Of a stretch of DNA of 64,000 nt, positions 3,796-39,422 are shown piece by piece. The stretch spans positions 410,038-474,037 of the forward strand of contig NZ_LMFJ01000002.1 of NCBI RefSeq assembly GCF_001426755.1, written 5' to 3'. Position 1 is the first letter of the stretch. Every line of letters starts with the position of its first letter. Source of the DNA: Aeromicrobium sp. Root495. GTDB lineage: Bacteria > Actinomycetota > Actinomycetes > Propionibacteriales > Nocardioidaceae. The translations under genes were made by a program, and so were the position numbers. Under the pieces are notes generated by a model, which saw nothing but the letters and a program-made list of their open reading frames with translations, did not search any database and was not told the origin of the DNA.

Positions 3796-3871
3796 GGACC
3801 CAGTCTGGTGTGCGTGGGCCGACCCGCCACTCGGCCGGGCCGAGGCGCTTCAGCGAGGGGCGGTCGGACGG

Positions 3872-4204
3872 TCAGCCGGCGTGGGCGCGACGGATGCTCA
3901 GGCCCACGTCGCGGTAGGCGAAACGGTGGTGGAAGTGCAGCGGCGCGGGGGGTGTGCCGGTGGGGGAGACGAGGCCGGGGTCGGCCGTCTCCTCGTCGCA
4001 GTGGCGCGACCAGCAGTCGTTCCGCACCACGAGCCGGTCGAGGACGATCGAGGCCAGGTAGTTGCCGTCGAGGTCGACGACCTCCGTGTCGCCCCACGGG
4101 CACCAGCCGATGCAGTGCCCGTCCAGGTCGAAGACGTGCGCGTCGTCCCAGCTGCGACGGAAAGCGATGGCATGCCCCGCCATGTCATACAGATAAGTGC
4201 TCAT
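3872..4204 (-). CDS. Small protein of the 4-fold beta-flower type
   Basis: 110 residues with short repeated units of the type aromatic-D-x-x-G-x-x-I-A/G: YLYDMAGHAIAF, VFDLDGHCIGW, VVDLDGNYLASI. This YD/DLDG repeat pattern is what I know as the '4-fold beta flower' fold, related to YD/RHS-like beta repeats. No signal peptide or membrane segment. The role is unknown; several Cys and Trp residues may matter for folding. ATG 4204 has a good ribosome-binding site, GAAGGA, 7 bases upstream. It is a separate transcription unit upstream of the SDR-DUF2867 gene, 76 bases away. Confidence 0.65.
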   Translation of the reverse strand: MSTYLYDMAGHAIAFRRSWDDAHVFDLDGHCIGWCPWGDTEVVDLDGNYLASIVLDRLVVRNDCWSRHCDEETADPGLVSPTGTPPAPLHFHHRFAYRDVGLSIRRAHAG

Positions 4205-4778: not shown

Positions 4779-5633
4779 CTAGAGGCGCAGCGAGGGGTCG
4801 TGGGGGCCCTTGGGGTCCACCCAGAAGTCGAGCGCAAGCCCTTCCTCGGTCCCCCCGTTGAGGTAGACCGAGAAGTCCGTGACCCCGGCCGCCTCGAGCA
4901 CGTCGTCGTCGATGAGGAACTGGCCGGTCTGCTCGCTCGGCGGCCGGACGAGGATCTCGTAGGCGGCGTCGGCCATGATCTGCGGCGTGCGTGAGTGTGC
5001 CTCCAGCCCGGCGCCCACGACGTTGCGCACGGCGGCCGTGTCGATGGCCGTGCGCGGCCAGAGGGAGTTGGCGGCGATGCCGTCGGCCCGCAGCTCCTCC
5101 GACAGTCCGAGGGTCACGAGGCTCATGGCGTACTTGGCCATGGCGTAGGCCGTGAAGGTCCCGAACCAGCGTGGATCGGTGCTGATGGGCGGCGACAGGG
5201 TGAGGACGTGGCCGTGGTCGGACTGCTTGAGCCACGGAAGCGACAGCTTGGAGAGCAGGAACGAGCCGCGCGCGTTGATGTCGAGCATGAGGTCGTACTT
5301 CTTCATGGAGATGTCGGCCGTGCTCGAGAGGTCGATCGCGCTGGCGTTGTTGACGACGATGTCGATGCCGCCGAACTTCTCGGCCGTCCGGGCCACGGCG
5401 TCCTCCACGAACGCGTCGTCGCGGACGTCGCCCACGAGCGGGAGCGCCTGGCCGCCGGCGTCGATCACGGCCTGCGCCGCCGTGTAGATGGTGCCCGGGA
5501 GCACGGGGTGCGGCTCGGCCGTCTTGGCCAGGAGCGCCACGTTGGCCCCGTCGCGGGCCGCTCGGACGGCGATGGCCTCGCCGATCCCCCGGCTGCCGCC
5601 GGACATGATGATGGTCTTGCCGGCGAGCGACAT
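4779..5633 (-). CDS. SDR family oxidoreductase, HSDL2-like
   Basis: 284 residues from ATG 5633, chosen because AGGAG sits 6 bases upstream; the frame continues upstream but without a ribosome-binding site. MSLAGKTIIMSGGSRGIGEA carries the TGxxxGIG cofactor loop; NNASAID follows, and TAYAMAKYAMS supplies YxxxK. The DGxxxANSLWPRTAI and EILVRPPSEQTGQFLIDDDVL segments match the hydroxysteroid dehydrogenase-like 2 group, here without the SCP2 sterol-carrier domain. Expected NAD(P)-dependent oxidation of an acyl- or steroid-type alcohol. Divergent from the hydrolase-nitroreductase pair with a palindromic operator between them. Confidence 0.88.
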   Translation of the reverse strand: MSLAGKTIIMSGGSRGIGEAIAVRAARDGANVALLAKTAEPHPVLPGTIYTAAQAVIDAGGQALPLVGDVRDDAFVEDAVARTAEKFGGIDIVVNNASAIDLSSTADISMKKYDLMLDINARGSFLLSKLSLPWLKQSDHGHVLTLSPPISTDPRWFGTFTAYAMAKYAMSLVTLGLSEELRADGIAANSLWPRTAIDTAAVRNVVGAGLEAHSRTPQIMADAAYEILVRPPSEQTGQFLIDDDVLEAAGVTDFSVYLNGGTEEGLALDFWVDPKGPHDPSLRL

Positions 5634-5687
5634 GGAATCTCCTGAGGACGCGAGTGGGGCTGGGGCCGATGTTGCCCGCCTCACCAC

Positions 5688-5709
5688 TTACCGTCAATAC
5701 TGACCGTAA
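5688..5709. promoter_or_regulatory. Palindromic operator in a divergent promoter
   Basis: TTACCGTCA, four bases, then TGACCGTAA: an inverted repeat with 8 of 9 positions matching. It ends one base before the ATG of the hydrolase at 5710 and lies 55 bases upstream of the SDR start at 5633. This size and symmetry fit a TetR-type dimer. The cognate regulator is not adjacent. The position implies that the hydrolase mRNA is leaderless or nearly so, unless a downstream start is used. Confidence 0.55.
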
Positions 5710-6591
5710 ATGTCCGAGCCCGTCGATCCCCCTGCATCCGTTCCGGCCTGGTTCGCCGACGCCCTCGCCCAGGAGCCGGAGCACCACGCCCTCGAGGTCG
5801 ACCGGGTCCGCGTGGCCTACCGCGCCTGGGGCCGGGCGGGCCTGCCCGTCGTGGTGCTCGTGCACGGTGGCGCGGCGCACGCGGGCTGGTGGGACCACGT
5901 GGCGCCGTTCCTGACGACCGGGCACCGCGTCGTCGCGATCGACCTGTCCGGGCACGGCGACAGCGGCCATCGGCCCCGCTACGACTTCGTCACCTGGGCG
6001 GCCGAGGTGATGGCGGTCGCGGCCGCCGAGGGATCCACCCGCCCGGCCGTCCTGGGTCACAGCATGGGCGGCTTCGTGACCCTCACCGCGGCCATCGACC
6101 CGAGGTACGAGCTGCTGGGAGCCGTGGCCATCGACTCGCCCGTGCGCCGGATGTCGTCCGAGGCGAGGGCGTGGCTCGACAAGAACCCGACCCTCCCGCC
6201 GCACAAGGTCCACCCCACCCGCGAGGCCGTCGAGGCCCGGTTCAAGACGCTCCCGTCCGACGACGCCACGCTCGACTACGTCCGGGCCCACATCGCCACC
6301 GGGTCGGTGAAGGAGGTGGAGGGCGGCTGGACCTGGAAGTTCGACCCGCGCATTTTCTTCAGCGCGCGCATGGAGCCCGAGGCGCTCGTGGCCGCCCCGG
6401 GTCCCATCGCCCTGGTCCGCGGGGAGCGCGGCATGGCCACGGCCGACATCACCGAGTCCGTCGCGACGATGCTCGGCGGCGACGTCCCCGTCACGCTCGT
6501 CCCGGACTCGGGGCACCACATCATGCTCGACCAGCCGCTGGCGCTCATCGCGGTGCTGCAGGCCTACCTCGGAGAATGGAGTCGCCCATGA
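5710..6591 (+). CDS. Alpha/beta hydrolase
   Basis: 293 residues. VVVLVHGGAAHAGWWDH holds the oxyanion HG motif, GHSMGG the nucleophile (Ser about 118), and DSGHHIMLDQP the catalytic His (about 269). The cap domain lies around residues 140-210. A cytoplasmic esterase, lactonase or C-C hydrolase; the substrate is not evident. It overlaps the nitroreductase start by 4 bases (ATGA), so the two genes form an operon. Regulation probably passes through the palindrome immediately before the start codon. Confidence 0.85.
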   Translation: MSEPVDPPASVPAWFADALAQEPEHHALEVDRVRVAYRAWGRAGLPVVVLVHGGAAHAGWWDHVAPFLTTGHRVVAIDLSGHGDSGHRPRYDFVTWAAEVMAVAAAEGSTRPAVLGHSMGGFVTLTAAIDPRYELLGAVAIDSPVRRMSSEARAWLDKNPTLPPHKVHPTREAVEARFKTLPSDDATLDYVRAHIATGSVKEVEGGWTWKFDPRIFFSARMEPEALVAAPGPIALVRGERGMATADITESVATMLGGDVPVTLVPDSGHHIMLDQPLALIAVLQAYLGEWSRP

Positions 6592-7248: not shown

Positions 7249-8688
7249 CTAGGGGAGCAGCGAGCCCAAACCCAGCACGGCGGCGAGCCCGAGCGCGCTG
7301 CGCGGGTGGTAGGCCGCGGTCCACAGGCCGCCGTGGGCCGCCCCGCGGGCCTCGTCCTGCCACGGCTCGTCGGCCGGCGGTTGTCCGGTGCGCAGGTCGT
7401 GCACGAGCAGGACGGCCATGAGCGAGTTGGACGTGGCCGGCTCGAAGACCTCCACGCCGAACCGGTGGGCCCCGGCGTAGGCCGCGGCCAGCGCCTTGTT
7501 CTTCACCACCGAGCGCGTGCGCGTGGCCGGCGCGACGTTGAGCGAGACGACCGTGCCGTGGGCCCGTGCATCGGTGGCGCGCCAGCGCTGCAGGCGCTTC
7601 GCCAGGGCGTAGTTGGGTCCCTGCTGCGGGACCAGCGCGTCGCACACGCCGGGATCCGCGCCCGGCGGGTAGTTGCGCTGGAGCAGCCGGCCCCCGGTGA
7701 CGGCGCGGACCGACGTCCGGGCGGCCCGCCCCACCCGGCCACGGGTGTAGGCCTCCTCGGCAGCGCCGACCTCCTCCGCGGGCACCACGAAGACGTCGGT
7801 GGGCGTGGCCAGGAACGACAGTGCCGTGTCGGGCCGGCGGGTGAGCAGGTGCGTGGCGAGCGCGTCCGCAGCCATGGAGACGCGCACGTGGTCGGACCCG
7901 TCGGCGTAGCAGTAGTTGCCGAGGACGAGCCGGTCGCCGGTCTGGTCCGCCAGCCGGTCGAGCCAGTCGGCCACGGCGGGGAGCTCGCGCACGAGGTCGG
8001 CTCCTTCGTCCGCGCCGGCGTCGGTGACGATGCGCGACGGCACGAGCACGCGTCCGGCCCCGGCGGTGGCGACCTCGCGCACCCGCTGCTGCACGTCGGC
8101 ACGTGGAAGGTCGAGCGCGGCCACCGTGGCACCCCAGCGCTGCAGCGCCCGGTAGGGACCCATCTCGGCGCCGGCCCCCAGCACCACGACGGTGTCGCCC
8201 TCGAGCCGGAGCCACTCGGGGTGGGTCATGACCGTCTGGACGGCGTCGGAGCACGACTGCGTGATGACGCCGCGCGCCACCCACTCGTCGAGCTGGCGGA
8301 CGAGGCCGGCACCCCGCAGCCGCTCGCCCCGGTACGGGATGCTCACCTCCGCGTCCGGCGAGCCACCTCCCTGCAGGGTGGTGGTGTGGAGGGCCTGCTC
8401 CAGCGGGACGGTCTCGATGGCGGAGGCGAGCGGGACCTCGTCGTACCGCATCTGCTCGGTGGCGCTCCGCAGGCCCTCGGCCGCGACGGAACGCGCCGCG
8501 GCAGCGTCGCCGATGCCGGCCTCGACCGCTCGTCGGAAGTGCTCCAGGTAGTTCCGGCGCCAGCTGGTCTCGTGCTCGACGGCCCGGGCCCCCACGGGAT
8601 CGGCCTTGCGCAACGCGTCGGCCAGGACCGCCCGCCCCGTGGCCGAGGTGCTGTCGCGGGCGAACGAGACTCCCTCTCGTGTGCTCAT
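7249..8688 (-). CDS. Conserved protein with Rossmann-like core, function unknown
   Basis: 479 residues, not recognised as a named family. A glycine-rich strand-loop, VVVLGAGAEMGPYRALQRWG, near residue 168 followed by VAALDLPRADVQ looks like a nucleotide-binding Rossmann unit. Upstream are helical segments and THPEWLRLEGD; downstream are YCYADGSDHVRVSMAADAL and NYALAKRLQRWRA. The C-terminus ends in a short hydrophobic stretch (LGLAAVLGLGSLLP). No signal peptide. It is alone on the minus strand, convergent with the nitroreductase, and upstream lies a long GC hairpin at 8864-8893. I propose no reaction. Confidence 0.75.
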   Translation of the reverse strand: MSTREGVSFARDSTSATGRAVLADALRKADPVGARAVEHETSWRRNYLEHFRRAVEAGIGDAAAARSVAAEGLRSATEQMRYDEVPLASAIETVPLEQALHTTTLQGGGSPDAEVSIPYRGERLRGAGLVRQLDEWVARGVITQSCSDAVQTVMTHPEWLRLEGDTVVVLGAGAEMGPYRALQRWGATVAALDLPRADVQQRVREVATAGAGRVLVPSRIVTDAGADEGADLVRELPAVADWLDRLADQTGDRLVLGNYCYADGSDHVRVSMAADALATHLLTRRPDTALSFLATPTDVFVVPAEEVGAAEEAYTRGRVGRAARTSVRAVTGGRLLQRNYPPGADPGVCDALVPQQGPNYALAKRLQRWRATDARAHGTVVSLNVAPATRTRSVVKNKALAAAYAGAHRFGVEVFEPATSNSLMAVLLVHDLRTGQPPADEPWQDEARGAAHGGLWTAAYHPRSALGLAAVLGLGSLLP

Positions 8689-29054: not shown

Positions 29055-29130
29055 GGAGGCTCCCCGGATCGTTCGTTGGTGCGCAGAGGCTATCGGAATC
29101 CTGTGAAGTCGGCCCGCACTCATCTCGCCA

Positions 29131-29152
29131 GAAACAGTCAGACTTGACGGTT
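29131..29152 (+). promoter_or_regulatory. Promoter/operator module before the TetR gene
   Basis: A 22-base block reading GAAACA-nn-CAG-n-CTTGAC-n-GTT. It matches the block at 30705-30726 in 18 of 22 positions, and both lie exactly 28 bases before a GTG start. TTGAC is a good -35 element; 17 bases on comes a weak -10 (TCATCC at 29167). Transcription would begin about at the GTG, giving a leaderless message. The palindrome GTCA-GACT-TGAC inside it could be the TetR site, implying autoregulation. Confidence 0.6.
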
Positions 29153-29179
29153 AATGGGACGGCGGGTCATCCTGGGCGC

Positions 29180-29785
29180 GTGACGAGTCAGCCCGTGCAA
29201 CGCACGCCGCAGGCCGAGCGCACGGCCGCGATGCGGCTGCGGCTCATGGAGGCGACCGTCGACTGCCTCGTCGAGCTGGGGTGGGCCGGCACCTCCACGA
29301 CCGTGGTCAGCCGTCGCGCCGGCGTGAGCCGCGGCGCGCAGCTGCACCACTTCCCCAGCAAGCAGGCGCTCGTGGTGGCGGCCGTCGAGTTCCTCACCGA
29401 GCGGCGGCGCGACGAGCTGGCCGCGGCCGCGGAGGAGCTGCCGGAGCAGGGCCGCACCCGCGCCGTGCTCGACGTCCTTGCGGCGCAGTTCGTCTCGCCG
29501 GTCTTCTTCGCCGCCCTGGAGCTGTGGGTCGCCGCCCGCAGCGACGCCGAGCTGCTCGAGGCCGTGGGGCCGCTGGAGCGTCGCCTCGGCCGCGAGACCC
29601 ACGTCCACGCGCTGGGCCTCTTCGAGGTCGAGGAGGCCAAGGGCGACAACCGGGCGCTCGTGCAGGCCACGCTCGACCTCCTGCGCGGCCTGGGCCTGGC
29701 GGCCTCGCTGAGCGACGACACCCGACGCCGTGGCGCGATCCTCGACGCCTGGGCCACCACCCTCGACCTCCGACTGGAGCGCTGA
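29180..29785 (+). CDS. TetR/AcrR family transcriptional regulator
   Basis: 201 residues from GTG 29180; the frame can be read from TTG 29144, but the promoter element covers that part. The N-terminal HTH reads RLRLMEATVDCLVELGWAGTSTTVVSRRAGVSRGAQLHHFPSKQALV, with helix 3 GVSRGAQLHHFPSK. The ligand domain (about 60-200) is mostly helical. Its promoter block is nearly identical to the one before atuA, and the stop abuts the next gene (TGAATG). The likely ligand is an acyl-CoA or terpenoid intermediate, by analogy with regulators of such clusters; that is inference. Confidence 0.92.
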   Translation: MTSQPVQRTPQAERTAAMRLRLMEATVDCLVELGWAGTSTTVVSRRAGVSRGAQLHHFPSKQALVVAAVEFLTERRRDELAAAAEELPEQGRTRAVLDVLAAQFVSPVFFAALELWVAARSDAELLEAVGPLERRLGRETHVHALGLFEVEEAKGDNRALVQATLDLLRGLGLAASLSDDTRRRGAILDAWATTLDLRLER

Positions 29786-30604
29786 ATGTCCGAGCCCCTG
29801 AACCCCGGGACCCCCTCCGCCAAGGACCAGGTCCTCGCCGATCTCGCGGCCGAGAGCGAGCAGCTCGACGGCTGGGTCTCGGGCCTCTCCGACGACGACT
29901 GGACCACCGTCACCACGCCCGAGGGCTGGACGGTGACCCACCAGGTCGGCCACCTCATGTGGACCGACCGCACGTCGCTCGCGGCCGTGGCCGGCGGCGA
30001 CGAGTGGGACATGCTGGTGCACCTGGCCGTCCAGGACCCCGAGGGATTCGTCGACACCGAGACGGCGCGCATGGCCGAGCTTCCGCCGGAGTCGATGCTG
30101 CACCACTGGCGGGACTCGCGGCAGCGTCTGGCCGAGGCGCTGGCGGCGGTGCCCGACGGGCAGAAGATCCCGTGGTTCGGGCCGCCCATGAGCGCGACGT
30201 CGATGGGGACCGCCCGACTCATGGAGACGTGGGCGCACAGCCGCGACGTCGCCGAGGCCGTCGGGATCGAAGCCCCCCGGGACGACCGCTGCAAGCACGT
30301 GTGCCACCTGGGCGTGCGCACACGCGGCTTCGCCTACCTGACCCGGGGGCTCGAGGTCCCCGACGCCGAGGTGCGCGTCGAGCTCGTCGGTCCGTCCGGC
30401 GCCGTCTGGACGTGGGGTCCGGAGGATGCCACCGAGCGCGTCACGGGCTCGGGCTACGACTTCGCGCTGCTGGCCACGCGTCGGCGCCACCTCGCCGACG
30501 TCGACGTGCACGCCCAGGGTGAGCACGCGCAGGAGTGGCTCGGCATCGTCCAGGCCTTCGCCGGCAACCCCGGCACCGACCCCCGCCCCCTCGCCGACCG
30601 CTGA
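29786..30604 (+). CDS. TIGR03084 family metal-binding (DinB/MDMPI-like) protein
   Basis: 272 residues. The N-terminal four-helix DinB-like fold carries TPEGWTVTHQVGHLMWTDR with paired histidines and a third in METWAHSRDVAEAVG, which together bind a divalent metal. The C-terminal part (about 180-272) resembles the MDMPI tail. Members of TIGR03084 are found beside AtuA-type genes in Actinobacteria; the reaction is not established, and mycothiol-dependent chemistry is one idea. ATG 29786 directly follows the TetR stop, so the two form one message. A palindromic repeat begins right after its stop. Confidence 0.85.
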   Translation: MSEPLNPGTPSAKDQVLADLAAESEQLDGWVSGLSDDDWTTVTTPEGWTVTHQVGHLMWTDRTSLAAVAGGDEWDMLVHLAVQDPEGFVDTETARMAELPPESMLHHWRDSRQRLAEALAAVPDGQKIPWFGPPMSATSMGTARLMETWAHSRDVAEAVGIEAPRDDRCKHVCHLGVRTRGFAYLTRGLEVPDAEVRVELVGPSGAVWTWGPEDATERVTGSGYDFALLATRRRHLADVDVHAQGEHAQEWLGIVQAFAGNPGTDPRPLADR

Positions 30605-30694
30605 CGGTTTACCACGTTAAGCGTGCAACCTGACCCATACCTCCGGAAGCTTCCGTAGGGATGGGTCGGTTTACCAACCCCCCGTGGTAAACCG
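30605..30694 (-). repeat. Dispersed palindromic repeat, copy 2 (90 bp)
   Basis: Ends are the same perfect 12-base inverted repeat as at 534-642 (CGGTTTACCACG at 30605-30616, CGTGGTAAACCG at 30683-30694). The outer arms align with copy 1 only in inverted orientation (26 of 27 identical for 30668-30694), while the 36-bp central near-palindrome (30632-30667) is identical to copy 1 in direct orientation. The arm 30669-30693 folds perfectly (GGTTTACCA against TGGTAAACC). It starts at the first base after the TIGR03084 stop and ends 10 bases before the atuA promoter block, where it could terminate or insulate transcription. Confidence 0.85.
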
Positions 30695-30704
30695 CGGTGG
30701 GGGA

Positions 30705-30726
30705 GAAACAAGCAGGCTTGACTGTT
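30705..30726 (+). promoter_or_regulatory. Promoter/operator module before atuA
   Basis: Matches the block before the TetR gene in 18 of 22 positions and at the same 28-base distance from the GTG start. TTGACT (30718-30723) serves as -35 and GCATGC (30741-30746) as a weak -10 after 17 bases. AACAAGCAG and CTGTTTGTT (30707-30715 and 30722-30730) form an imperfect inverted repeat, and CAAGC-AG-GCTTG a perfect inner one. The likely target of the TetR protein encoded 1 kb upstream; message probably leaderless. Confidence 0.6.
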
Positions 30727-30753
30727 TGTTCTGTTTCAGGGCATGCTCGAGAC

Positions 30754-32481
30754 GTGACGATTCGTGTCGGCAACTGCTCGGGGTATTACGGCGACCGTCT
30801 CTCGGCGATGCGCGAGATGCTCGAGGACGGTGAGCTCGACTACCTGACGGGCGACTACCTCGCCGAGCTCACGATGCTGATCCTGGGCCGCGACCTCATG
30901 AAGGACCCGAGTCTCGGGTACGCCAAGACCTTCGTCCGCCAGGTCTCGGACTCCCTCGCCCTGATCAAGGAGAAGGGCGTCCGCGTGGTCGCCAACGCCG
31001 GCGGCCTCAACCCCGCGGCGCTGGCCGACAAGCTCCGCGAGCTCGCCGCCGAGCAGGGCGTCGAGATCGCGATCGCCCACGTCGAGGGCGACGACCTCCG
31101 GCCGCGCTCGGAGGAGCTGGGCTTCGGGGGCGTGCTCACCGCCAACGCCTACCTCGGCGCCTTCGGCATCGCCGCCGCGCTCGAGGCCGGCGCCGACGTC
31201 GTCGTCACGGGTCGTGTCACCGATGCCTCCGTCGTGGTGGGGCCCGCCATCCACGCCTTCGGGTGGGGTCGCGACGACCTCGACCAGCTGGCCGGCGCCG
31301 TCGTGGCCGGGCACGTCATCGAGTGCGGCACGCAGGCCACCGGGGGCAACTTCAGCGGCTTCGCGAGCCTCGACGTCACGCGCCCGTTGGGCTTCCCCCT
31401 CGCAGAGATCGACGCCGACGGATCGAGCGTCATCACCAAGCACGAGGGCACCGGAGGCGCCGTCACGGTCGACACCGTCACGGCCCAGCTCGTCTACGAG
31501 GTGAGCGGCCCGGCCTACGCCAACCCCGACGTCGTCGCGATGCTCGACACCGTCCACCTCGCGCAGGAGGCCGACGACCGCGTGCGGATCAGCGGCGTCA
31601 AGGGTGCGCCGCCGCCGCCCACCACCAAGGTCTGTCTCAACGCACTCGGCGGGTTCCGCAACAGCGTCGAGCTGGTCCTGACAGGCCTCGACATCCCGGC
31701 CAAGGCAGCGTGGGTCCGCGCCCAGGTCGACGCCGCACTCCAGGCGACCCCTCCCGACGAGGTCGTGTGGCACCTCGACCGCACCGACGTCTTCGACCCC
31801 GCCACGCAGGCCCAGGCCACGTCGTACCTGCACTGCCACGTGAAGAGCGCGAGCCCCGAGCCGGTCGGCCGGACGTTCAGCGACGCCTTCGTCCAGGTGG
31901 CGCTGGCCTCCTACCCCGGCTTCACGCTCACCGCGCCGCCGTCCAAGGGCACGCCGTTCGGCGTCTACCGCGCCGCGTACGTGCCGCAGACCGACGTCCC
32001 GCACGTCGTCGTCCACCCCGACGGCCGTCGCGAGGACGTCGCACCCCCCATCACCACCGCCCCCCTTCCAGATCTGCGCCGTGATCGACCGAGCAGCGAC
32101 ACCGAGACGGTCGATCACGGCGCAGATCGGGCGGTACGGGCGGTCCCGCTGGGGGAGCTGGCGTACGCGCGGTCGGGCGACAAGGGCGGCGACGCCAACG
32201 TCGGAGTCTGGATCCCCGCCCACCATCCGCGCCGTGCCGACGCGTTCGCCTGGCTCGCGAGCGAGCTCACTCCCGAGCGCGTGCAGGAGCTCCTCTCGGA
32301 GTCCGCCGACCTCGACGTCGAGGTGCACGCGTTCCCCGAGCTGGCCGGCGTCAACATCGTGATCCACGGTCTGCTGGGCGAGGGTGTCGCGTCGTCGACC
32401 CGCCTCGACCCGCAGGCCAAGGCCGTCGGCGAGTGGCTCCGTGCCCGCGTCGTGACCATCCCTGAGGAGCTCATCGCATGA
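30754..32481 (+). CDS. atuA: Acyclic terpene utilization AtuA family protein
   Basis: 575 residues from GTG 30754. Residues 1 to about 440 form the DUF1446 domain (IRVGNCSGYYGDRLSAMREM, VVANAGGLNPAAL, VVVTGRVTDASVVVGPA, HVIECGTQATGGNFSGF). A C-terminal AtuA-like ferredoxin-fold domain follows (about 468-575: AYARSGDKGGDANVGV to VVTIPEEL). Atu proteins belong to citronellol/geraniol catabolism in Pseudomonas, where AtuA is required but its reaction is unproven. The linker between the domains is encoded by a 21-bp perfect inverted repeat. First gene of a six-gene catabolic run; its stop overlaps a 27-codon mini-ORF. Confidence 0.88.
   Translation: MTIRVGNCSGYYGDRLSAMREMLEDGELDYLTGDYLAELTMLILGRDLMKDPSLGYAKTFVRQVSDSLALIKEKGVRVVANAGGLNPAALADKLRELAAEQGVEIAIAHVEGDDLRPRSEELGFGGVLTANAYLGAFGIAAALEAGADVVVTGRVTDASVVVGPAIHAFGWGRDDLDQLAGAVVAGHVIECGTQATGGNFSGFASLDVTRPLGFPLAEIDADGSSVITKHEGTGGAVTVDTVTAQLVYEVSGPAYANPDVVAMLDTVHLAQEADDRVRISGVKGAPPPPTTKVCLNALGGFRNSVELVLTGLDIPAKAAWVRAQVDAALQATPPDEVVWHLDRTDVFDPATQAQATSYLHCHVKSASPEPVGRTFSDAFVQVALASYPGFTLTAPPSKGTPFGVYRAAYVPQTDVPHVVVHPDGRREDVAPPITTAPLPDLRRDRPSSDTETVDHGADRAVRAVPLGELAYARSGDKGGDANVGVWIPAHHPRRADAFAWLASELTPERVQELLSESADLDVEVHAFPELAGVNIVIHGLLGEGVASSTRLDPQAKAVGEWLRARVVTIPEELIA
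32071..32128. repeat. Palindromic element inserted in frame in the atuA linker
   Basis: GATCTGCGCCGTGATCGACC (32071-32090) plus one further G is a perfect inverted repeat of 32108-32128, 21 bp per arm with a 16-base loop. It encodes the unstructured stretch LRRDRPSSDTETVDHGAD between the two AtuA domains without breaking the frame. A codon-driven origin is implausible for a perfect 21-bp arm, so a REP-like mobile palindrome that landed in a tolerant linker is the best reading. Confidence 0.75.
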
Positions 32482-32561
32482 GCGAGCGCCAGCGAGTGAA
32501 CGATCAGACTGTCATGACGGTGCCTCCGTACCGTTCCTTTTCTACGGAGGTAGCGGCATGA
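32478..32561 (+). CDS. 27-codon mini-ORF linking atuA to the dehydrogenase
   Basis: ATG at 32478 overlaps the atuA stop (ATGA) and TGA at 32559 overlaps the dehydrogenase ATG at 32558 (ATGA again). The peptide would be 27 residues, beginning MSERQRVNDQTVMTV. Ribosomes finishing atuA could re-initiate, read through the hairpin at 32523-32550 and free the Shine-Dalgarno of the next gene. The starting sequence resembles a low-complexity leader often seen before actinobacterial genes, so it may be only a spacer. No domain is recognisable. Confidence 0.35.
   Translation: MSERQRVNDQTVMTVPPYRSFSTEVAA
32523..32550 (+). promoter_or_regulatory. Hairpin hiding the dehydrogenase ribosome-binding site
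   Basis: CCTCCGTA (32523-32530) pairs perfectly with TACGGAGG (32543-32550) across a 12-base loop. The 3' arm is the GGAGG Shine-Dalgarno of the ATG at 32558, 7 bases on. An alternative stem ACGGT/ACCGT (32517-32521 with 32530-32534) would compete with it. Translation of the upstream mini-ORF would melt the hairpin, giving coupled expression. Confidence 0.55.
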
Positions 32562-33712
32562 CCACAGCCTGGAACACCCCCGAGCGCAAGGCACTCCGGT
32601 CCGCCGTGGAGGACTTCACGCGCGCCGAGATCGTGCCGCACCTCGCGCAGTGGGAGGACGACGGCCAGCTCCCGCGCGAGCTGCACGCCACGACGGCGAA
32701 GGCCGGCTTCCTCTCCGTCGGCTACGACGAGGCGGTCGGTGGCGACGGCGGCGACATCCTCGACGCGTGCGTCGTCACCGAGGCGATGCTCGCGGCCGGC
32801 GGCTCGACCGGGCTGCAGGCGAGCCTCTACACGCACAGCATCGCGCTGCCCCACATCATCGACAGCGGCAACGCCGACCTCATCGACCGCTACGTCCGGC
32901 CCACCCTCGCCGGCGAGAAGATCGGCTCCCTCGGCGTGACGGAGCCGGGCGGCGGGTCCGACGTGGCGGCCCTCAAGACCCGCGCCGTCCGCGACGGCGA
33001 CCACTACGTCGTGAACGGCGCCAAGACCTTCATCACGTCGGGTGTCCGCTCGGACTTCGTGACCACCGCGGTCCGCACGGGCGGCGACGGTCACGCCGGC
33101 ATCTCCCTGCTCGTCATCGACAAGGACTCGCCCGGCTTCACCGTGAGCAAGAGCCTGCGCAAGATGGGCTGGCACTGCTCCGACACCGCCGAGCTCTCCT
33201 TCGACGACGTCCGTGTGCCGGTCGAGAACCTCGTCGGCGAGGAGAACGGCGGCTTCTACCTCGTCATGCAGCAGTTCGTGGGTGAGCGGATCGGCCTCGC
33301 CGTCCAGGCCTACGGCACGGCCCAGCGCGCCCTCGACCTCTCCGTGGCCTACGCCCGCGAGCGCGAGACCTTCGGCAAGCCGCTCATCGCCCGGCAGGTC
33401 ATCCGGCACAAGCTGGTCGAGATGCACACGCGCATCGCCGCGGCGCGCGAGCTGACCCGACGCGCCGTCGAGCGCGCGCTCGAGACCGATCGCTCCGACA
33501 TGTCGCTCATCCTCGACGCCGTGGTGGCCAAGAACCAGGCCGTCGAGTGCGTCGAGTGGGTCGTGAACGAGGCCGTCCAGATCCATGGCGGCATGGGCTA
33601 CATGCGCGAGTCCGAGATCGACCGGCACTACCGCGACGCCCGCATCCTCGGCATCGGCGGCGGCGCCACCGAGGTCATGAAGGACCTCGCGTCCAAGCTC
33701 CTGGGCTACTGA
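32558..33712 (+). CDS. Acyl-CoA dehydrogenase (citronellyl/isovaleryl-CoA type)
   Basis: 384 residues, full length. LGVTEPGGGSDVAALKTRA binds FAD/substrate, GAKTFITSGVRSDF follows, and FGKPLIARQVIRHKLVEM and AVQIHGGMGYMRESEIDRHYRDARI close the fold. The usual C-terminal catalytic Glu is replaced (ILGIGGGATEV), but a Glu at 243 in VGERIGLA is where isovaleryl- and long-chain enzymes carry theirs. This suggests a branched substrate. It would oxidise citronellyl-CoA to geranyl-CoA, or an equivalent branched acyl-CoA. Its ribosome-binding site is in a hairpin. Confidence 0.92.
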   Translation: MTTAWNTPERKALRSAVEDFTRAEIVPHLAQWEDDGQLPRELHATTAKAGFLSVGYDEAVGGDGGDILDACVVTEAMLAAGGSTGLQASLYTHSIALPHIIDSGNADLIDRYVRPTLAGEKIGSLGVTEPGGGSDVAALKTRAVRDGDHYVVNGAKTFITSGVRSDFVTTAVRTGGDGHAGISLLVIDKDSPGFTVSKSLRKMGWHCSDTAELSFDDVRVPVENLVGEENGGFYLVMQQFVGERIGLAVQAYGTAQRALDLSVAYARERETFGKPLIARQVIRHKLVEMHTRIAAARELTRRAVERALETDRSDMSLILDAVVAKNQAVECVEWVVNEAVQIHGGMGYMRESEIDRHYRDARILGIGGGATEVMKDLASKLLGY

Positions 33713-33721
33713 GAGGCAGCC

Positions 33722-35311
33722 GTGAAGACAGTCATCGATCCCACCTCGGCGGCGTACGCCGAGAACCGCGCGGCCATGCTGGAGCGCGTCGACGACCTCG
33801 CCGAGCAGCACGCCAAGGCGCTCGCCGGCGGCGGTGAGAAGTACGTCGACCGCCACCACCAGCGCGGCAAGCTCACGGCCCGCGAGCGCATCGAGCTGCT
33901 CGTCGACCCCGACTCCCCGTTCCTCGAGCTCGGTGCGCTCGCCGGCTGGGGCACCGACTTCACGGTGGGCGGCTCGATCATCACGGGCATCGGCGTCGTG
34001 GAGGGCGTCGAGGTCATGATCGTGGCCAACGACCCCACCGTGAAGGGTGGCTCGTCCAACCCGGTCACGGTGAAGAAGGGCTTCCGAGCGGCGCAGATCG
34101 CCGAGGAGAACGGCCTGCCGACGATCAACCTCGTCGAGTCCGGCGGCGCAGACCTCCCCACCCAGAAGGACATCTTCATCCCCGGCGGAGCGAGCTTCCG
34201 CAACATCACCCGCGCGAGCGAGGACCGTCGGCCCACGGTGGCCCTCGTCTTCGGCAACTCCACCGCGGGCGGTGCCTACATCCCGGGCATGAGCGACTAC
34301 GTCGTCATGGTCAAGGAGGGCGCCAAGGTGTTCCTCGGCGGCCCGCCGCTCGTCAAGATGGCCACGGGTGAGGAGTCCGACGACGAGTCGCTCGGCGGAG
34401 CAGAGATGCACGCGCGCACGTCGGGCCTCGCCGACTACCTCGCCGTCGACGAGCACGACGCGATCCGTCTGGGCCGCCAGGTGGTGCGCCGGCTCAACTG
34501 GACCAAGAAGGGCAAGGCGCCGGTCACCGAGTACGGCGAGCCGCTCCTCGACCAGGAGGACCTGCTGGGCATCGTCCCCACCGACCTCAAGGTGCCGTTC
34601 GACCCGCGCGAGGTCATCGCCCGGCTCGTCGACGACAGCGCCTTCGACGAGTTCAAGCCGCTCTACGGCTCGAGCCTCGTCACCGGCTTCGCGCAGCTGC
34701 ACGGCTACCCGATCGGCATCCTCGCCAACGCGCAGGGTGTGCTGTTCAGCCAGGAGGCGCAGAAGGCCGCGCAGTTCATCCAGCTGGCCAACCAGACCGA
34801 CACCCCGCTGCTGTTCCTGCACAACACCACCGGCTACATGGTGGGCGCGGAGTACGAGCAGGGCGGCATCATCAAGCACGGCGCCCAGATGATCAACGCG
34901 GTCTCCAACTCCAAGGTCCCGCACCTCTCGGTCGTCATGGGCTCGTCCTACGGCGCCGGCCACTACGGCATGAGCGGCCGCGCGTACGACCCGCGCTTCA
35001 TGTTCAGCTGGGTGGGCGCCAAGTCGGCCGTCATGGGTCCGGCCCAGCTGGCCGGCGTCATGGAGATCGTGGCGCGCGGCTCGGCGGAGTCCAAGGGCCA
35101 GCCGTTCGACGCCGAGGGGTTCGCCGGCATCAAGGCGTACGTCGAGCAGCAGATCGAGGAGCAGTCCATCGCGTACTTCACGTCGGGCCTCGGCTACGAC
35201 GACGGCGTCATCGACCCGCGCGACACCCGCGCGATCCTCGGCATCTGCCTCTCCACCATCCACACCGCGCCGGTCGCCGGCGCCCGAGGCTACGGAGTGT
35301 TCCGCCTGTGA
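33722..35311 (+). CDS. Acyl-CoA carboxylase beta subunit (carboxyltransferase)
   Basis: 529 residues from GTG 33722, 9 bases after the dehydrogenase. Both crotonase-like halves are present: N-terminal HHQRGKLTARERIELLVDPDSPFLELG and NLVESGGADLPTQKDIFIPGGASF, central GNSTAGGAYIPGMSDYVVMV, and C-terminal YGAGHYGMSGRAYDPRFMFSW. This is the methylcrotonyl/geranyl-CoA carboxylase beta group rather than the propionyl-CoA group. It moves CO2 from carboxybiotin to the gamma carbon of an enoyl-CoA. Its partner alpha subunit follows after a 115-base gap. Confidence 0.92.
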   Translation: MKTVIDPTSAAYAENRAAMLERVDDLAEQHAKALAGGGEKYVDRHHQRGKLTARERIELLVDPDSPFLELGALAGWGTDFTVGGSIITGIGVVEGVEVMIVANDPTVKGGSSNPVTVKKGFRAAQIAEENGLPTINLVESGGADLPTQKDIFIPGGASFRNITRASEDRRPTVALVFGNSTAGGAYIPGMSDYVVMVKEGAKVFLGGPPLVKMATGEESDDESLGGAEMHARTSGLADYLAVDEHDAIRLGRQVVRRLNWTKKGKAPVTEYGEPLLDQEDLLGIVPTDLKVPFDPREVIARLVDDSAFDEFKPLYGSSLVTGFAQLHGYPIGILANAQGVLFSQEAQKAAQFIQLANQTDTPLLFLHNTTGYMVGAEYEQGGIIKHGAQMINAVSNSKVPHLSVVMGSSYGAGHYGMSGRAYDPRFMFSWVGAKSAVMGPAQLAGVMEIVARGSAESKGQPFDAEGFAGIKAYVEQQIEEQSIAYFTSGLGYDDGVIDPRDTRAILGICLSTIHTAPVAGARGYGVFRL

Positions 35312-35426: not shown

Positions 35427-37357
<1,931 letters not shown>

Positions 37358-37361
<4 letters not shown>

Positions 37362-38524
37362 GCAACAACTTCACCGAGACCCAGGAGCGCGGCGAGCTGC
37401 GCAAGGCGGTCGCCGCCCTCGGCGCGAAGTACGGCGAGGCCTACTTCTACGGCGCAGCCAAGGAGGGTCGCAAGACCACCGAGCTGTGGGGCGAGGCCGG
37501 GAAGCTCGGCTACCTCGGCGTCTCCATCCCCGAGGAGTTCGGCGGCGGAGGCGGCGACATCGGCGACCTCGCCGCGGTGTGCGAGGAGCTGGCCACGGCC
37601 GGCTGCCCGCTCCTGCTCATGGTCGTGAGCCCGGCCATCGTCGGCACCACGATCGCGCAGTACGGCACGCAGGAGCAGAAGGAGCGCTGGCTTCCGGGTC
37701 TCGCCGACGGCACCGCCACCTATGCCTTCAGCATCACCGAGCCCGACGCCGGCTCCAACTCGCACAACATCGTCACCAACGCCGCCAAGGCAGAGGACGG
37801 CGGCTGGGTGCTCAACGGCGGCAAGACCTACATCTCCGGCGTCGACGAGGCGAGCCACCTGCTCGTGGTCGCGCGCCGGTCCGACGCCAAGACGGGCAAG
37901 CTCAAGCCGGCCCTCTTCATGGTGCCCACCGACGCCGAGGGCTTCACGGCCCAGGAGATCGACATGGGGATCATCAGCCCGGAGAAGCAGTTCACGCTCT
38001 TCTTCGACGACGTCCGCCTCCCGGCCGACGCCCTCATCGGCAGTGAGGACGCCGGGCTCGAGCAGCTCTTCGCGGGCCTCAACCCCGAGCGCATCATGGC
38101 CGCCTCCATGGCCACCGGCACCGCGCGCTGGGCCATCCGCAAGGCCGTCGCCTACGCCAAGGACCGCGAAGTGTGGGGCAAGCCGATCGGCGCGCACCAG
38201 GCCATCTCGCACCCGCTGGCGCGGCTGCACATCGACGTCGAGATGTCGCGCCTCCTCACCCAGAAGGCCGCCGCGCTCTACGCCGCAGGCGACCTGCTGG
38301 GTGCCGGCGAGGCGGCCAACATGGCCAAGGTGGCGGCGGGTGAGGCGGCGGCCAAGGCCGTCGACCAGGCCATCCAGACGCACGGCGGCAACGGCCTGGC
38401 CAACGAGTACGGTCTGGTCCAGGCCGTGGCGTCGTCGCGCCTGTCCAACATCGCGCCGGTGAGCAAGGAGATGGCACTCAACTTCGTGGCCCAGTTCTCC
38501 CTGGGCCTCCCCAAGTCCTACTAG
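37358..38524 (+). CDS. Acyl-CoA dehydrogenase, second in the operon
   Basis: 388 residues from ATG 37358 (ATGA overlap). TYAFSITEPDAGSNSHNIVTNA and GGKTYISGVDEASHLLVVAR bind flavin and substrate; DREVWGKPIGAHQAISHPLARLH and AIQTHGGNGLANEYGL complete the fold. The common C-terminal catalytic Glu is absent (SNIAPVSKEMALNFV); Glu 244 in LNPERIM occupies the isovaleryl-CoA dehydrogenase position. It differs clearly from the first dehydrogenase, so they probably act on different intermediates of the same pathway. Confidence 0.92.
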
Positions 38525-38638: not shown

Positions 38639-38669
38639 TATGGTCACTTCAACTCTCCCGGAGGTCCGG

Positions 38670-39422
38670 ATGCCCACTGAGCTCGTGCACCTCGACGTCG
38701 CCGACGGCGTCGCCACCATCACGCTGGACAGCGAGCACAACCGCAACGCCCTGAGTCGCCAGCTCGTCACCGAGCTGGCCGACCGGCTCACGGCGGCGGG
38801 GGAGCACCCCGACGCCAAGGTCGTCGTGCTGCGCTCGGCCCACCGGGTCTTCTGCTCCGGCGCCGACCTCTCGGAGGCCGCGTCGGGCGGCATGGTCGAG
38901 GGCGCGCAGGCGCTCGTGGCGATGCAGCGCCAGATCGCCACGCTCCCCCAGCCCGTGGTCGTCGTCCTGGCCGGCCCGGTCCGGGCCGGAGGCCTCGGCC
39001 TCGTGGGCGCGGCCGACATCGTGCTCGCCGCGGAGTCGGTCTCGTTCGCCCTCACCGAGGTGCGTCTCGCGCTCGCGCCGGCCGTCATCTCGCTCTCGCT
39101 CCTCCCGCGACTCACCGACCGAGCCGCCGCCGACCTCTTCCTGACGGGTCGCACCTTCGACGCGGCCGAGGCGGCGCGGCTGGGCCTCGTGACCCGCGCC
39201 GTCCCCGACGACTCCCTGGCCGGCGAGCTCGCGGCCGTGCTGACGGATCTCTCGGCCGGCTACCCGCAGGGCTTCCGCGAGACCAAGAAGCTCCTCAACC
39301 ACGACCTCGTCGCCCGGATCGACGCGCTCGGTGGTGGTGTGGCCGAGCAGTCCGCGGCACTGTTCGGCAGCGACGAGGCCCGCGCCGCGATGCTCGCCTT
39401 CCTGGAGCGGAAGCGGGGCTAG
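38670..39422 (+). CDS. Enoyl-CoA hydratase/isomerase family protein
   Basis: 250 residues from ATG 38670, GGAGG 5 bases upstream. Crotonase fold: ATITLDSEHNRNALSRQL, FCSGADLSEA (oxyanion loop) and FALTEVRLALAPAVISLSL, with the Glu equivalent to Glu164. The other crotonase Glu (144) is not there: the segment reads RAGGLGLVGAADIVLA. Hydration of methylglutaconyl- or isohexenylglutaconyl-CoA is likely given the operon (AtuE/LiuC role). It would give the 3-hydroxy acid that a lyase, not seen here, would cleave. Confidence 0.88.
   Translation: MPTELVHLDVADGVATITLDSEHNRNALSRQLVTELADRLTAAGEHPDAKVVVLRSAHRVFCSGADLSEAASGGMVEGAQALVAMQRQIATLPQPVVVVLAGPVRAGGLGLVGAADIVLAAESVSFALTEVRLALAPAVISLSLLPRLTDRAAADLFLTGRTFDAAEAARLGLVTRAVPDDSLAGELAAVLTDLSAGYPQGFRETKKLLNHDLVARIDALGGGVAEQSAALFGSDEARAAMLAFLERKRG

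Follow-up and report, generated by a model that had tools for sequence, protein, structure and literature searches.

A regulator of the TetR family, encoded in a stretch of 64,000 nucleotides (nt) from Aeromicrobium sp. Root495 (Nocardioidaceae; contig NZ_LMFJ01000002.1, positions 410,038 to 474,037 of the forward strand), very probably represses its own gene and the neighbouring acyl-CoA degradation operon via a palindromic site that is common to both promoters. The stretch is referred to as the window, and positions are counted from its first letter. We regard this as a new TetR regulon with an ordinary switch design. A likely operator, regulator and regulon are thus assigned to a cluster that codes for AtuA and a carboxylase similar to methylcrotonyl-CoA carboxylase (MCC); the substrate of this cluster is unsettled, and the pocket of the carboxylase resembles that of geranyl-CoA carboxylase. 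Among the open-licence PMC papers listed (mostly the best 8-20 per search), no description of this operator or of a TetR of an AtuA operon in Nocardioidaceae was found, and a search for the operator strings returned two unrelated papers in total.

From the sequences we infer binding by TetR, the sign of regulation, the start sites, co-transcription of the operon and the type of ligand, as follows. TetR proteins act as dimers, so that binding to a 26-bp near-palindrome is expected, and TetR (29180-29785) would bind as a dimer to such a site at both promoters. Because the operator covers the -35 element, bound TetR would block RNA polymerase. This would repress tetR and the adjacent TIGR03084 gene at promoter 1, and the operon atuA-acd1-accD-accA-acd2-ech at promoter 2. 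Transcription of both messages is predicted to start with the first G of the GTG start codon, in which case the operator, the -35 and -10 elements and the start codon make up a compact unit of about 50 bp. A weaker copy of the site (5686-5711) would add a short-chain dehydrogenase (SDR) of the HSDL2 type and a divergent hydrolase to the genes under control. The repressor would be released by an acyl-CoA of the pathway, for which a branched or isoprenoid compound is plausible.

A probable common operator before tetR and atuA

The two matching blocks, GAAACAGTCAGACTTGACGGTT at 29131-29152 and GAAACAAGCAGGCTTGACTGTT at 30705-30726, are identical at 18 of 22 positions, and each ends 28 nt before a GTG start codon (GTG at 29180 and 30754). 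Both figures had been given in a preliminary description of this DNA and are correct upon recounting. When the comparison is extended (from 29130 and 30704 through the GTG), 33 of 53 nt are identical, so that the likeness beyond the blocks is mostly that of the -10 element and the start codon. A scan of the 64-kb window with GAAACANNCAGNCTTGACNGTT, the pattern of common positions, returned exactly both blocks when up to three mismatches were allowed. The genome-wide motif search that had been proposed (3,575,694 bases) gave exact matches at both blocks, one further place at three mismatches and no other place with two mismatches or fewer.

The sites themselves are thus real, but the unit is not the 22-base block that had been taken for the operator. 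It is a 26-bp near-palindrome with the symmetric consensus ACAAACAGTCAAG-CTTGACTGTTTGT (symmetric 26-bp model). Operator 1, upstream of tetR (AGAAACAGTCAGACTTGACGGTTAAT, 29130-29155, plus strand), contains block 1 and scores 31.9 bits with a 28-bp model and 37.1 bits with the symmetric model. Operator 2, upstream of atuA (AGAAACAAGCAGGCTTGACTGTTTGT, 30704-30729, plus strand), contains block 2 and scores 50.1 and 44.2 bits, respectively. TTGAC, which is part of the -35 element, sits within the right half of the operator and is conserved across the tetR sites of the named loci. The module had also been called duplicated, which is adequate insofar as two copies are present; as a claim of a physical copying event, it goes beyond the evidence.

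A site upstream of tetR is found in 80 of 80 named loci (16.9-54.4 bits with the 28-bp matrix, which was trained on those same 80 tetR promoters), and a palindromic site in its own promoter is what an autoregulating TetR repressor should have. The named loci with a site include representatives of Aeromicrobium, Nocardioides, Mumia, Marmoricola, Knoellia and Janibacter, with the nearest named relatives being from Aeromicrobium. Null counts for both site models were obtained from mononucleotide shuffles. The symmetric model gave no site above 0 bits in 20 shuffles of the window, and the 28-bp model gave none above 8 bits in shuffles of the loci and the window.

The gene tetR (29180-29785, plus strand) has a GTG start, is probably leaderless and codes for a putative regulator of 201 residues. 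Its membership in the TetR family is evident from the N-terminal TetR_N helix-turn-helix (PF00440, 39.8 bits with a cut-off of 24) and from the all-helical, TetR-like predicted fold. The AlphaFold2 model has nine helices and a mean predicted local distance difference test score (pLDDT) of 91. A PDB fold search with this model returned 219 matches at E<=0.001, and the best 50 of these are mostly titled as TetR-type or transcriptional regulators. An attempt to derive the ligand from the structure was abandoned, the PDB matches being generic, with at most 29% identity in the best 50 of 219.

Promoters and predicted leaderless starts

Both promoters are built alike (-35, 18 nt, -10, 6 nt, GTG). 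Promoter 1 has the -35 element TTGACG within operator 1 (29144-29149) and the -10 element CATCCT (29168-29173); promoter 2 has TTGACT within operator 2 (30718-30723) and CATGCT (30742-30747), all on the plus strand. In each case, the -10 element provides an A at position -11 and a T at position -7 relative to the GTG. A weak -10 spacing had been noted previously; the spacing of 18 nt is, however, ordinary in both promoters.

The start-codon alignment was restricted to sites of at least 12 bits, which leaves out atuA genes that have no operator, and each distinct sequence of site plus downstream region entered it a single time. A(-11) and T(-7) are each present in 100% of the 21 distinct atuA promoters, and in 81% and 84%, respectively, of the 99 distinct tetR promoters. 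Counted from the first T of TTGAC, the start codon is at 35-37 nt for 99 of the 100 distinct tetR sites and at 35-36 nt for all 21 distinct atuA sites. A start codon at a fixed distance from TTGAC, together with a suitably placed -10 element, points to leaderless messages, which is in agreement with the earlier suggestion. Words resembling a Shine-Dalgarno sequence occur in none of the 21 distinct atuA promoters and in 5 of the 99 distinct tetR promoters. In the named loci, such words were found at 2 of 76 tetR starts, compared with 32 of 59 for acd1, 15 of 29 for the TIGR03084 gene and 14 of 27 for acd2 (control start codons were chosen mechanically).

Passages of a study on mapped transcription starts in M. 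tuberculosis report a TANNNT motif 7-12 bp upstream of the start (PMC3898074), and the position of the -10 element agrees with this. The promoters resemble the leaderless actinobacterial promoters covered there in having A(-11), T(-7), a GTG or ATG start and few Shine-Dalgarno-like words (PMC3898074). They differ in that the -10 element mostly begins with C or G instead of T, and in that the -35 element is conserved, apparently owing to its place within the operator.

Co-occurrence of the regulator and the site

A search of 149 family genomes at E<=1e-30 detected TetR in 122. The exact core of the operator, CANNNTTGACTGTTTNT, is present in 120 of these 122 genomes and in none of the 27 genomes without TetR. 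The two TetR genomes that lack the exact core (G008 and G145) have variant sites upstream of tetR. With 131 matches in 120 genomes, the exact core averages about one match per genome. There are 109 matches at most 150 nt upstream of tetR and 18 before atuA; the remaining ones are at the SDR/hydrolase pair (two; G130 and G014), before accD (one; G053) or unplaced (one). The near-exclusive genomic placement and the co-occurrence with TetR are direct observations, as are the sequences, their conservation and their spacing. The operator is thus usable as a genome search motif, as had been anticipated: 130 of 131 exact matches are at regulon genes. Furthermore, an own site precedes atuA in 18 of 35 genomes of the genus, with unchanged spacing to the start (of the 36 genomes with TetR, G145 was left out of this comparison). 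This distribution argues for the previously proposed link between TetR and the acyl-CoA operon. The operator permits target finding in each genome and a simple reporter screen for the inducing acyl-CoA.

A weaker third site at an SDR/hydrolase pair

Besides the two sites described so far, there is a weaker third site at 5686-5711, which had been overlooked. This candidate operator 3 (ACTTACCGTCAATACTGACCGTAAAT, no strand assigned) scores 14.4 bits with the 28-bp model and 20.2 bits with the symmetric model. It is located between the divergent genes for the HSDL2-type SDR (4779-5633, minus strand) and an alpha/beta hydrolase (5710-6591, plus strand). When the whole genome is searched with a looser pattern and at most two mismatches are allowed, operators 1, 2 and 3 are the only matches. 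At three mismatches, there are 25 further matches (two of them being reverse strands of known sites), compared with 8 in all for a backwards control. The SDR promoter is on the minus strand, with the -35 element TTGACG (5692-5697) within operator 3 and the -10 element CAACAT (5669-5674) 17 nt past it. The SDR gene is leadered and has a Shine-Dalgarno-like AGGAG.

Several relatives have a site at the same position between the SDR and hydrolase genes, while elsewhere it precedes the hydrolase gene or another nearby gene. In G145 and G150, the same TTAC...GTAA form is found between the TIGR03084 gene and atuA (confirmed for G145). The third site probably puts the SDR and the divergent hydrolase under the control of TetR, which is likely but not certain.

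A 479-residue open reading frame (7249-8688, minus strand) without Pfam or NCBIfam match adjoins the nitroreductase gene of the third-site gene group. In L296, a stretch with 73% identity to this open reading frame is kept beside the third-site gene group.

Alternative explanations

A number of observations do not fit repression by TetR through this operator, or narrow its scope. In the symmetric-model alignment, dyad positions pair about as often as column composition predicts; the dyad is thus a property of the consensus, without compensatory covariation. One exact core match (G014:C210, locus L291, G014:C210:500-4000, near position 1547, minus strand) is without an identified target gene, and the symmetric model gives no site above 8 bits in L291 around it. 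The tetR promoter in L035 lacks a start codon at the expected position. In the named loci, Shine-Dalgarno-like words are also few at atuA (17 of 71, mostly joined), accD (5 of 27) and accA (8 of 41), so that a lack of such words says little by itself in favour of leaderless messages. A site just upstream of the SDR gene (20-36 bits) was found in only 7 of 30 loci examined, from a total of 37 SDR genes found, and in the other 23 there is none.

The same applies to more distant homologues. In a survey of the class, TetR was matched in 113 of 394 genomes, and 20 loci from other families were picked from these 113. In 17 of the 20 loci, no site exceeded 5 bits, and in 14 of those 17, TetR is encoded after acd2 and/or ech (counted by eye). 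The link between TetR and the operator thus holds for one clade, and the notion that the entire TetR group shares the operator was rejected. Two of the three distant loci with a site above 5 bits have tetR before atuA. In the third (G483), tetR and atuA are divergent with the site between them, and the TetR homologue is 51% identical. Finally, three other genomes have a related palindrome, NTACAGTCAGCGGTGACTGTAAC, some 80-110 nt ahead of the region that matches a paralogous TetR (L254, L257 and L259, at about 1501-1522), with the paralogous proteins showing 34-38% identity to TetR from the window. The paralogue may be a sister regulator that has an operator of a similar kind. Similar palindromes at paralogous TetR genes make cross-binding by another TetR possible.

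The latter observation is what speaks for the site being the operator of another regulator, e.g., the paralogous TetR. We consider this improbable given that the exact core follows the presence of TetR itself (120 of 122 against 0 of 27), that the site precedes tetR in every named locus and that the looser pattern yields only three sites with two mismatches or fewer in the genome of the window. Just as improbable is that no regulator binds to the blocks and that they represent only a strong promoter consensus recognised by a sigma factor, whether housekeeping or alternative. TTGAC and the -10 element are, indeed, among the most constant parts, and their spacing to the start codon is fixed. However, the left half, ACAAACARTCARG, is upstream of the -35 element and is conserved as a mirror of the right half, and sigma factors do not need it. 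A general promoter would also not be confined to regulon genes in 130 of 131 cases across 120 genomes, nor be absent from 27 of 27 sampled family genomes without TetR. Slightly less probable still is that TetR binds but activates, or that it acts mainly by other means than blocking the -35 element. The sign of regulation is not readable from sequence, and FasR is listed as an activator in NCBIfam, but the near-palindrome covers the -35 element at tetR, atuA, accD of G053 and the SDR gene, a position that is typical of repression. Chance similarity of two AT-rich stretches is negligible, being already refuted by conservation across the genera listed above and by the lack of any match to GAAACANNCAGNCTTGACNGTT in 100 dinucleotide shuffles of the window. 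Repression by TetR remains the preferred explanation.

Genes of the operon and hints at the substrate

The gene directly 3' of tetR codes for a TIGR03084 metal-binding protein (MDMPI_N; 29786-30604; profile match). The first gene of the catabolic operon is atuA (30754-32481), which has PF07287 and AtuA_ferredoxin domain matches and is the sole PF07287 match in the genome at E<=0.001. It is followed by the genes for acyl-CoA dehydrogenase Acd1 (32558-33712), carboxyltransferase beta subunit AccD (33722-35311), biotin carboxylase with a biotin carrier domain AccA (35427-37361), acyl-CoA dehydrogenase Acd2 (37358-38524) and the enoyl-CoA hydratase/isomerase family protein Ech (38640-39422). All of these genes are on the plus strand. 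The order tetR-TIGR03084-atuA is found in 71 of the 80 named loci; eight of the others lack atuA in the stretch examined and one lacks the TIGR03084 gene (all counted by eye).

As a whole protein, AccD is not closest to geranyl-CoA carboxylase (5ikl, 472.7 bits), as the beta subunit of MCC scores higher (3u9r, 539.9 bits). AccD is, however, devoid of the three-residue pocket insertion of MCC (region of MCC Phe191). Over the pocket segment, its best alignment is with 5ikl and is free of gaps, a Gly being opposite a Gly of the 5ikl loop (the chain residues taken as Phe191 and Gly162 were assigned from the numbering). This region determines the substrate preference of MCC and geranyl-CoA carboxylase, the latter having a Gly, according to passages of PMC4673880. 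The genome codes for a second carboxyltransferase that is 50% identical to AccD. A plain leucine (MCC) pathway is less likely because AccD is without the MCC loop and because this other carboxyltransferase, a candidate MCC, exists elsewhere. The missing loop and the pocket similar to that of geranyl-CoA carboxylase are also the reason for our guess that the inducer is plausibly a branched or isoprenoid acyl-CoA of the pathway. AtuA, SDR, acyl-CoA dehydrogenase, both carboxylase subunits and enoyl-CoA hydratase are all represented, SDR only via the weaker third site; an acyl-CoA ligase was not encountered among the six operon genes scanned.

A repeat upstream of atuA and the splitting of operons

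Directly past the stop codon of the TIGR03084 gene is a 90-bp palindromic interspersed repeat (30605-30694, plus strand) with the ends CGGTTTACCA...TGGTAAACCG. It separates this gene from operator 2. The region 30600-30700 has a fold z-score of -5.9, and the window contains another copy at about 534-641. The right end of the repeat is found at 28 places in the genome with three or fewer mismatches, some elements accounting for two of these. BLAST revealed at least 18 distinct places (by eye; 18 of 29 candidates were scored), and matches in only 3 of 48 other genomes of the genus. The inverted repeats upstream of block 2 had been candidates for another operator, which was rejected, as they belong to this interspersed repeat. 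The repeat may also end the upstream transcript.

In the 18 genomes of the genus with an own atuA site, atuA is at least 67 nt away from the TIGR03084 gene, up to kilobases, or is located elsewhere in the genome. In the 17 genomes without this site, the gap is 3-161 nt (up to 228 nt in named loci), so that the ranges overlap. The atuA site outscores the tetR site in 18 of 18 genomes. For the tetR site, the mean score is 34.5 bits where atuA has its own site, as against 49.0 bits in the 17 other genomes (p = 5.6e-7, a value that is inflated since kinship was ignored). On a tetR tree with 48 rows, in which the atuA-site genomes G037, G088 and G056 are absent, the presence of the atuA site requires five changes, at least two of which are forced by well-supported branches; thus, the site does not go back to one event. 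The same unit of operator, -10 element and predicted leaderless GTG is present before accD in G053 (L293, about 3867-3892), where acd1 and accD stand apart. By count, the start codon of this accD again follows TTGAC at 35 nt; the scored sites do not include the tetR site of G053.

It is tempting to speculate, though we regard this as rather doubtful, that the cassette of about 50 bp (operator, promoter and start codon) arises, by re-creation or copying, at the new 5' end whenever the operon breaks and that, at atuA, the tetR copy then relaxes, leaving the enzymes with the tighter switch. This tentative idea would cover both the occurrence before atuA in several Aeromicrobium lineages and that before accD in G053. 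The cassette would be self-sufficient because the messages are leaderless. The recurrence of a strong site at the enzyme operon with a weaker one at the regulator gene offers a natural series for how autoregulation is retuned after an operon split.

Comparison with known systems

From the gene order fadE13-accD2-accA2-fadE12-echA7, the cluster in the window is a putative orthologue of the mycobacterial AccD2-AccA2 cluster. In the parts of PMC4347857 that deal with it, AccD2-AccA2 is a second MCC-like carboxylase that differs from AccD1 at the substrate segment; AccD from the window also departs from MCC there. Its metabolic role is called an open question, and those parts do not mention a regulator for this pair (PMC4347857).

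BkaR from mycobacteria (Rv2506/MSMEG_4718) is similar in being an autoregulatory TetR repressor adjacent to an accD-accA-fadE operon with a palindromic promoter motif, as described in passages of PMC3920632. It controls, however, the AccD1/AccA1 carboxylase of the leucine pathway (PMC4347857, in part), while AccD from the window is devoid of the MCC pocket loop. That the sites belong to a BkaR regulon was rejected because the core of the BkaR motif as given there, GTTA(N)T(N4)A(N)TAAC, does not fit ACAAACAGTCAAG-CTTGACTGTTTGT (PMC3920632).

AtuR from Pseudomonas is the nearest working analogue. AtuB and AtuG are SDRs. The sections of PMC9973270 on acyclic terpene utilisation (atu; P. aeruginosa and P. 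citronellolis) and on RdmA/dmg (P. nitroreducens) describe a TetR-family repressor gene adjacent to atuA and operators of palindromic form within the atuA promoter. The clusters described there resemble the cluster in the window in coding for AtuA, an acyl-CoA dehydrogenase, an enoyl-CoA hydratase and two subunits of a carboxylase (PMC9973270). The AtuR repeats reported there, AGCAAGCGCTTGG/CCAAGCGCTTGCT, have CAAG/CTTG half-sites in common with the operator in the window, but the latter is not of the AtuR type, being of a different sequence. AtuR has two 13-bp repeats, about 40 bp apart and just upstream of the -10 element, in front of divergent genes (PMC9973270). In the window, by contrast, each promoter has one 26-bp near-palindrome over its -35 element, tetR and atuA are co-directional, and their starts are predicted to be leaderless.

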